Below are positions 31,792-32,609 of a DNA stretch of 64,000 bases, one piece after another. The notes under the pieces were generated by a model. The model was given only the letters and a program-made list of their open reading frames with translations. It had not been told where the DNA came from and did no database searches. The position numbers and the translations under genes are program-made. Origin of the DNA: Cokeromyces recurvatus (lineage: Eukaryota > Mucoromycota > Mucoromycetes > Mucorales > Mucoraceae); assembly GCF_025118155.1 (NCBI RefSeq), contig NW_026251400.1:186001-250000 (forward strand), read 5' to 3'. The first letter of the stretch is position 1. Every line of letters starts with the position of its first letter.

Positions 31792-32609
31792 TTAACGAGA
31801 GGTGGCAGCAGCCTTAGGAGCGAAACCCTTAGCTTGTTGCTTGCTGACCTTGGATTGGTTAACCTACCAAATACAAATAAAATAAATACCCCATATAAAT
31901 ATATATATGTATATGTATGTGTATATATTTAATAACTTACATTAGGGTTAGCAGCCTTCTTAGCAGCAGCAGCAGCCTTCTTAACTTCCTTGGACTTGGC
32001 AATAGCGGCTTGACGAGCAGCAGCACGAGCATCAGGCTTTTGGTTACGCTTAGCACGAATAGCTTCCCAAGAGGCACCGGCAATAGCACGTTCGTGCTTG
32101 ACGGTACGACGAGAACGCTTCTTGCGGACTTCTTCAGTAATACCCTTCTTATTCAAACGACGGTAGATTTGGGTCCATCTGATCTTACGAGGGTTCAAAC
32201 GTTGAAGGAAGTAAGAGGCAGCCTTACCATTAATGAAACGGAAAGTCTATAAAAAAATAAAATAAATAAAATAAAATAAAATCAATTACATTGGGTCCAT
32301 TTGCTGATGTCAAATTAAATAAATGAAGAAAATTCTGCTTACTCTATAAAATGAAATGAAAAAAGAGAAATATTAATATATAATCCCATTTCATACATTA
32401 ATTTTTTTTTTTAGATTAAATTTACCTAGAGTCGACACGAACGTAAGTCTTACCCTTGGCAGGATAGATCTTATGACCAGAGAAGGAACAAATCTCAAGC
32501 CTAATAAAAATGAATCCATGTAAGTTTATGATTGTCTTTATAATGTTTAATTCGATATGCTGTTATTATCGAGTAGATGGATCGTTTGATGGATGATACA
32601 TTACTTCAT
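31792..32609 (-). CDS. RPL24: Ribosomal protein eL24, with a predicted 1-nt exon
   Basis: Exons 32609-32605 (ATGAA only), 32500-32426, 32343 (one nucleotide), 32246-31941 and 31863-31792 give 152 residues, matching the 155 of yeast eL24. N-terminus MKLEICSFSGHKIYPAKGK, zinc-site region, then the join VRVDS-R-TFRF, then ASYFLQRLNPRKIRWTQIYRR and a basic Ala/Lys-rich tail. Without the single A at 32343 (flanked by TATAG and GTAAGC) the exons do not join in frame. With it the Arg codon AGA is made exactly where eL24 has Lys/Arg. Cytosolic 60S subunit component at the subunit bridge. An alternative non-canonical splice cannot be excluded. Confidence 0.92.

Follow-up and report, generated by a model that had tools for sequence, protein, structure and literature searches.

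The window, the 64,000-nucleotide stretch of Cokeromyces recurvatus (Mucorales, Mucoromycotina) DNA analysed here, carries on its minus strand a gene for the ribosomal protein eL24 in five coding exons (Table 1). Together the exons make up 459 nt and specify a 152-residue protein that is matched by the Pfam family Ribosomal_L24e (PF01246; E 1.4e-29); the best match among solved structures is the L24-A chain of ribosome 7pzy (residues 1-152; E 4.6e-45). Full-length matches to fungal ribosome structures were the chains L24-A and L24-B, which have K (DSKIFRF) where R is found here. The third exon appears to be a single nucleotide. On the minus strand the segment reads ...GTCGACTCTAG/gtaaattt...ttcattttatag/A/gtaagcag...tttttatag/ACTTTCCGTTTC..., in which slashes mark the splice boundaries and the lone A is position 32343. 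The earlier note, made from the letters of the window, had placed this A between TTTTATAG and GTAAGC, and reading of the minus strand confirmed the placement. Translation bore out the note's further claims that the A is the third base of an AGA codon and that the coding length comes to 459 only with it; the codon is that of Arg27, between DS and TFRF. When the A is left out, exons 2 and 4 are out of frame, as the note had also said, and the product stops after 43 residues.

Table 1. Coding exons and introns of the eL24 gene in the window; L001 and L002 are the other two eL24 loci of the same genome.
Feature	Position	Strand	Description
exon 1	32605..32609	(-)	ATGAA, coding part only, 5 nt; the coding sequences of L001 and L002 begin likewise
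intron 1	32501..32604	(-)	GT-AG, 104 nt
exon 2	32426..32500	(-)	75 nt; 3' end GAC TCT AG, phase 2
intron A	32344..32425	(-)	GTAAAT...TTTTATAG, 82 nt; 79 and 89 nt in the paralogs
one-nucleotide exon, A	32343..32343	(-)	third base of AGA (Arg27); counterparts L001:1405 and L002:1368
intron B	32247..32342	(-)	GTAAGC...TTTTATAG, 96 nt; 95 and 132 nt in the paralogs
exon 4	31941..32246	(-)	306 nt; starts ACT TTC CGT TTC (TFRF)
intron, exon 4 to exon 5	31864..31940	(-)	GT-AG, 77 nt
exon 5	31792..31863	(-)	72 nt, stop codon included

A search of the 28-Mb assembly found three eL24 loci, on the window's contig (C6, 687,009 bases), on C62 (L001) and on C12 (L002). L001 and L002 have the same five-exon layout as the window copy, with 5, 75, 1, 306 and 72 coding nt, and in all three paralogs AG-A-GT sits between exons 2 and 4. 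Their coding sequences show 90-93% identity and differ at 18-19 of 74-77 four-fold sites; the introns align poorly except at their ends, the L001 and L002 introns sharing 74 nt at 72%. The three paralogs share ancestry and are not three independent events. Within the intron region between exons 2 and 4, AGNGT occurs once in the window copy (179 nt), once in L001 and twice, overlapping, in L002, and AG-A-GT is the only such site common to the three regions. In every copy the product that skips the single nucleotide stops after 43 residues, and the frame that retains it is otherwise intact. Codons for VRVDS, at the end of exon 2, differ between the copies only synonymously, including Ser as TCT versus AGC, which indicates that the 3' part of exon 2 is coding. 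The two codons for DS read GACTCT, GATAGC or GACAGC, a difference by which the paralogs are distinguishable. Both introns beside the single nucleotide are canonical GT-AG introns, and their sizes (79-132 nt across the copies) are about those of introns 1 and 4 across all eL24 copies (61-104 nt). If the one-nucleotide exon is counted, the three genes have 12 introns of 61-132 nt; without it the intron between exons 2 and 4 would measure 175-222 nt. The predicted window protein is identical to its best database match, the deposited 152-residue C. recurvatus protein P0002, so the correct eL24 protein is already in the deposited annotation; at the level of protein, this identity is consistent with retention of the nucleotide.

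Alternative splice models were enumerated from exon 2 to exon 4 with canonical GT-AG introns no shorter than 40 nt and with acceptors no more than 60 nt into exon 4. Models with one intron that keep the frame numbered 4, 4 and 5 for the window copy, L001 and L002, respectively; all delete sequence from exon 2, exon 4 or both, and they were rejected for this loss of exon sequence. Two-intron, in-frame models numbered 24, 12 and 48, of which 2, 1 and 6 leave both exons intact, and among these the one-nucleotide A is the only model common to the three copies. The result supports the one-nucleotide exon put forward in the earlier note. The other models that spare both exons, 1 in the window copy alone and 5 in L002 alone, give extra residues or Ser for Arg; in L002 these comprise a second, overlapping AG-T-GT, which also yields 152 residues with Ser replacing Arg, and 4 further models. 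A longer exon 2 was ruled out in the window copy and L002 by the next codon, TAA; in L001 no stop follows exon 2 within the first 8 codons. An upstream extension of exon 4 was ruled out in every copy by an in-frame TAG directly before ACT. Longer microexons, with AG-to-GT gaps of 4, 7 or 10, were absent from the intron regions of the window copy and L001, and the two candidates in L002, one at gap 7 and one at gap 10, were rejected with scores of 3.1 and 0.6.

The inner splice sites were scored with a matrix trained on the outer splice sites of these same three genes (9 donors and 9 acceptors); the two inner sites were excluded from it. The inner acceptors scored 6.75, 10.2 and 7.2 in the window copy, L001 and L002 (training range 6.6-10.9), so that the acceptor in the window barely exceeds the lowest training acceptor. 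Inner donors of the window copy (4.85) and L001 (4.68) fall below the lowest training donor (5.3), and the L002 donor, at 8.3, equals the best training donor. The inner sites are good enough for use, though strong only in part. The intron region of each copy was put through 20,000 dinucleotide shuffles, and a site scoring at least as high as the observed one arose in 0.33% (window), 0.045% (L001) and 0.07% (L002) of cases; these fractions are kept separate and were not multiplied, because the paralogs share ancestry. Among the 321 AGNGT sites scored on both strands of the window, 4, including the one at 32343, reach the score of the window copy, and none reaches those of L001 or L002. Eleven AG-N-GT sites in the window score above 10, the one at 32343 among them. 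Another of these, 36973(+), lies on the strand opposite to, and just upstream of, an open reading frame at 36868-35963 (-) with CxxCxGxG-type repeats, a motif from which we take the frame to be DnaJ-like.

The eL24 homologues compared were the best 120 of 247 matches, and a junction was called normal if it fitted [VIL][RKSC]xD[SNG][RK]x[FY][RKH]F. All 54 listed proteins from outside the Mucorales and Umbelopsidales or without an organism name (environmental ones included) have a normal junction, with R or K at the place of Arg27; among them are 15 of 15 Mortierella-type proteins. The other 66 are proteins that we take from their organism names to be of Mucoromycotina, the placement being looked up for Cokeromyces and the Umbelopsidales only; 19 of the 66 listed models are normal and 47 are abnormal. 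The difference between 47/66 and 0/54 abnormal has a Fisher p of 3e-18, a value that ignores relatedness and so is not phylogenetically independent. By a heuristic classification, exon 2 ends early in 12 of the 47 (11 as if a donor at -17 had been used, P0019 as if one at -11), residues are inserted at the junction in 12, and sequence near the beginning of exon 4 is lost or altered in 8; these 32 models may be what a gene finder puts out when a joint is one base short. Exon 2 is in another frame in 9 and absent in 6 (P0052, filed under the latter, resembles exon 2 in another frame), and for these 15 the 5-nt first exon alone could be the cause. That exon, ATGAA, is a second tiny exon of eL24 in all three paralogs, and it is likely another cause of wrong N-termini in public eL24 models.

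Eight of the abnormal models listed, from Mucor fragilis, M. circinelloides (two), Rhizopus stolonifer (two), Absidia glauca, Rhizomucor pusillus and Lichtheimia ornata, contain D-S-R-V-[R/S/C]. In the fixed phase, DSRV[RSC] corresponds to AG, then A or G, then GTN, then a codon compatible with NGN (Ser also with TCN), as expected if intron A had been spliced to a one-nucleotide exon that was then read through into a GTNNG donor. In the Choanephora protein P0030, intron A appears to be retained in another frame; the run ...AYR/TFRF can be read as ...TAYAGR/, which would place one base after the same acceptor. Two further proteins, P0050 (Rhizopus arrhizus) and P0086 (Mucor hiemalis), include the string DSRLSVS, which is what translation gives when the one-nucleotide exon is skipped, and are back in the eL24 frame within a few residues. 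All six listed Umbelopsis proteins are abnormal, with loss specific to the junction in only two (P0031 and P0039); three of the others have no exon 2 and one has exon 2 in another frame. No eL24 DNA of other Mucorales was found among the genome contigs and viral contigs searched, and the evidence across species thus rests on proteins. These annotation scars suggest that the one-nucleotide exon is probably widespread in the Mucorales and, with less assurance, that the arrangement perhaps predates the split from the Umbelopsidales.

Instead, just one intron, non-canonical at one of its ends (GT...TA or TA...AG), might be removed at the junction, in which case the codon would be AGG, the mRNA would read GACTCTAGGACTTTC and the inner AG-A-GT would be a coincidence. 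The geometry is possible in all three copies and the protein would be the same, AGG being also an Arg codon, but splice ends of these two kinds are very rare, and such a splice neither explains the conserved inner AG-A-GT in three of three copies nor accounts for the eight public DSRV[RSC] models; we consider it very unlikely. A canonical single intron could start from a cryptic donor, TAC/GTTCGT, 17 nt inside exon 2, giving TACACTTTC at the mRNA junction and a real eL24 without VRVDSR. This donor is in frame in all three copies, and the 11 public Mucoromycotina models that end exon 2 at -17 apparently use such a site, with KTY fused to TFRF in P0013, P0018 and P0041. Its score, however, is 3.0 versus 5.3-7.7 at the end of exon 2, and its use would remove residues that are retained in all 54 listed outside proteins, in 19 of the 66 Mucoromycotina models and in the deposited C. 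recurvatus protein, and whose codons vary only synonymously among the copies. As the main splice site the cryptic donor is not credible, and it is very unlikely that the real eL24 lacks these residues.

If the exon were skipped, exon 2 being joined directly to exon 4 with GACTCTAGACTTTC at the mRNA junction, a -1 ribosomal frameshift might rescue the frame, and a one-base slip back on AGA-CTT would indeed read AGA ACT. Direct reading found no slippery heptamer at the joint in the three copies, the conserved inner splice sites would be left unexplained, and the skip product ends early in every copy, as noted above; such a rescue is extremely improbable. A nested [D1,2] stwintron, in which an internal intron ends in AGAG and the last G of the exon joins TA... 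to form the external donor, fits the geometry of the three copies, for the exon has G as its last base and AGAG/TA stands at the inner site. Its product of 457 nt, however, loses the frame and meets an early stop in three of three copies. The stwintron is thereby refuted as a productive route and is conceivable only as an unproductive minor isoform, and we see hardly any prospect that it explains the locus. The rarity of one-nucleotide exons in general would favour either a base dropped at the exon junction in sequencing or assembly, the error for which the earlier note had allowed, or a pseudogene. Against this, the same base would have to be missing from three copies on three contigs, precisely at the exon joint, and the reading frames are otherwise intact in all three; the chance of either is close to nil.

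We conclude that position 32343 is very probably a genuine constitutive single-nucleotide exon of a nuclear eL24 gene, its flanking introns being removed consecutively by intron definition and the A completing AGA (Arg27). What the genomic sequence itself shows are the intron boundaries, the frame, the recurrence of the arrangement in three paralogs and the absence of any other canonical solution that they share; consecutive splicing and constitutive inclusion are inferences. Introns A and B would each be recognised by intron definition and excised in succession, because a one-nucleotide exon cannot be bound from both sides simultaneously, and the retained A would complete the Arg27 codon between DS and TFRF, with GACTCTAGAACTTTC expected at the mRNA junction. 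Since AG ends exon 2 as well as intron A, the donor of intron B reads AGA/GTAAGC whether or not intron A has been excised, and neither order of removal is blocked. Consecutive removal under intron definition is the mechanism proposed for the plant gene APC11 (PMC4674806) and is the simplest one here. It seems doubtful that the exon predates the split of the Mucorales and Umbelopsidales and has been kept as a splicing switch tuning the supply of eL24, whereby inclusion would give eL24 and skipping a 43-residue frame that would be cleared by nonsense-mediated decay. An autoregulatory role of skipping is conceivable, with the 43-residue skip product as its sole support.

Previous work showed by cDNA and mutants that Arabidopsis APC11 has a nuclear, spliceosomal, constitutive one-nucleotide exon (PMC4674806). 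There, too, an A lies between AG and GT and is required for the frame; APC11 differs in being a plant cell-cycle gene present in one copy, in contrast to the three copies of a fungal ribosomal-protein gene here, known from sequence. The one-nucleotide microexons of plant APC11 and VPS55 are described as deeply conserved and as lacking in the reference annotations for the plants under study; these cases are in land plants and have RNA-seq and RT-PCR support, and VPS55 has isoforms both with and without the exon (PMC8831610). The earlier note had named a plant gene as the best-known case; plants are no longer the only comparison, a single-nucleotide exon of Fusarium CYP621A having been published in 2026 and stated there to be the first fungal case (PMC12940212). 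Like the eL24 exon, it lies in a fungal nuclear gene, and it was inferred from one base lacking at a conserved motif, an intron that was too long and a conserved AG-N-GT; there the base is G, the genes are rarely expressed P450 genes of Fusarium (Ascomycota) and the proof consists of 18 SRA reads (PMC12940212). The eL24 exon differs in its base (A), its ribosomal-protein gene, its occurrence in Mucoromycota and a span that is likely broader. Ascomycete [D1,2] stwintrons likewise consist of two U2 introns that need consecutive removal, and the eL24 geometry is one slip away from theirs; a stwintron leaves no nucleotide behind, whereas eL24 must keep one base. The mitochondrial introns rnl-576/577 also have a single A between two fungal introns but are group II introns of an organelle rRNA, unlike the spliceosomal introns of the protein gene described here (PMC12308204).

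Our literature search found few nuclear one-nucleotide exons, and the open-access literature searched yielded none described from eL24 or from Mucoromycota. The eL24 case joins the known one-nucleotide exons and stands out by lying in a ribosomal-protein gene, by being present in three copies and by its probable age. As a ribosomal-protein gene, eL24 is presumably highly expressed, and with three copies it should thus offer a convenient natural substrate for the splicing of two introns one base apart and for the order of their removal. If the scars are read correctly, the exon is broadly conserved and 47 of the 66 listed Mucorales and Umbelopsidales eL24 models are faulty at or before the junction; out-of-phase scars of this kind may serve to find other one-nucleotide exons.

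Just upstream of the eL24 gene, at 33055-32894 (-), the window holds an open frame that resembles the CENP-X-like part of the Rhizopus delemar proteins P0037 and P0038, in which the domain (PF09415) was taken from the precomputed domains of those proteins and not from the window frame. The resemblance suggests that CENP-X-like and eL24 genes are neighbours in a conserved gene order and that the two have been wrongly fused in the public annotation of P0037 and P0038.
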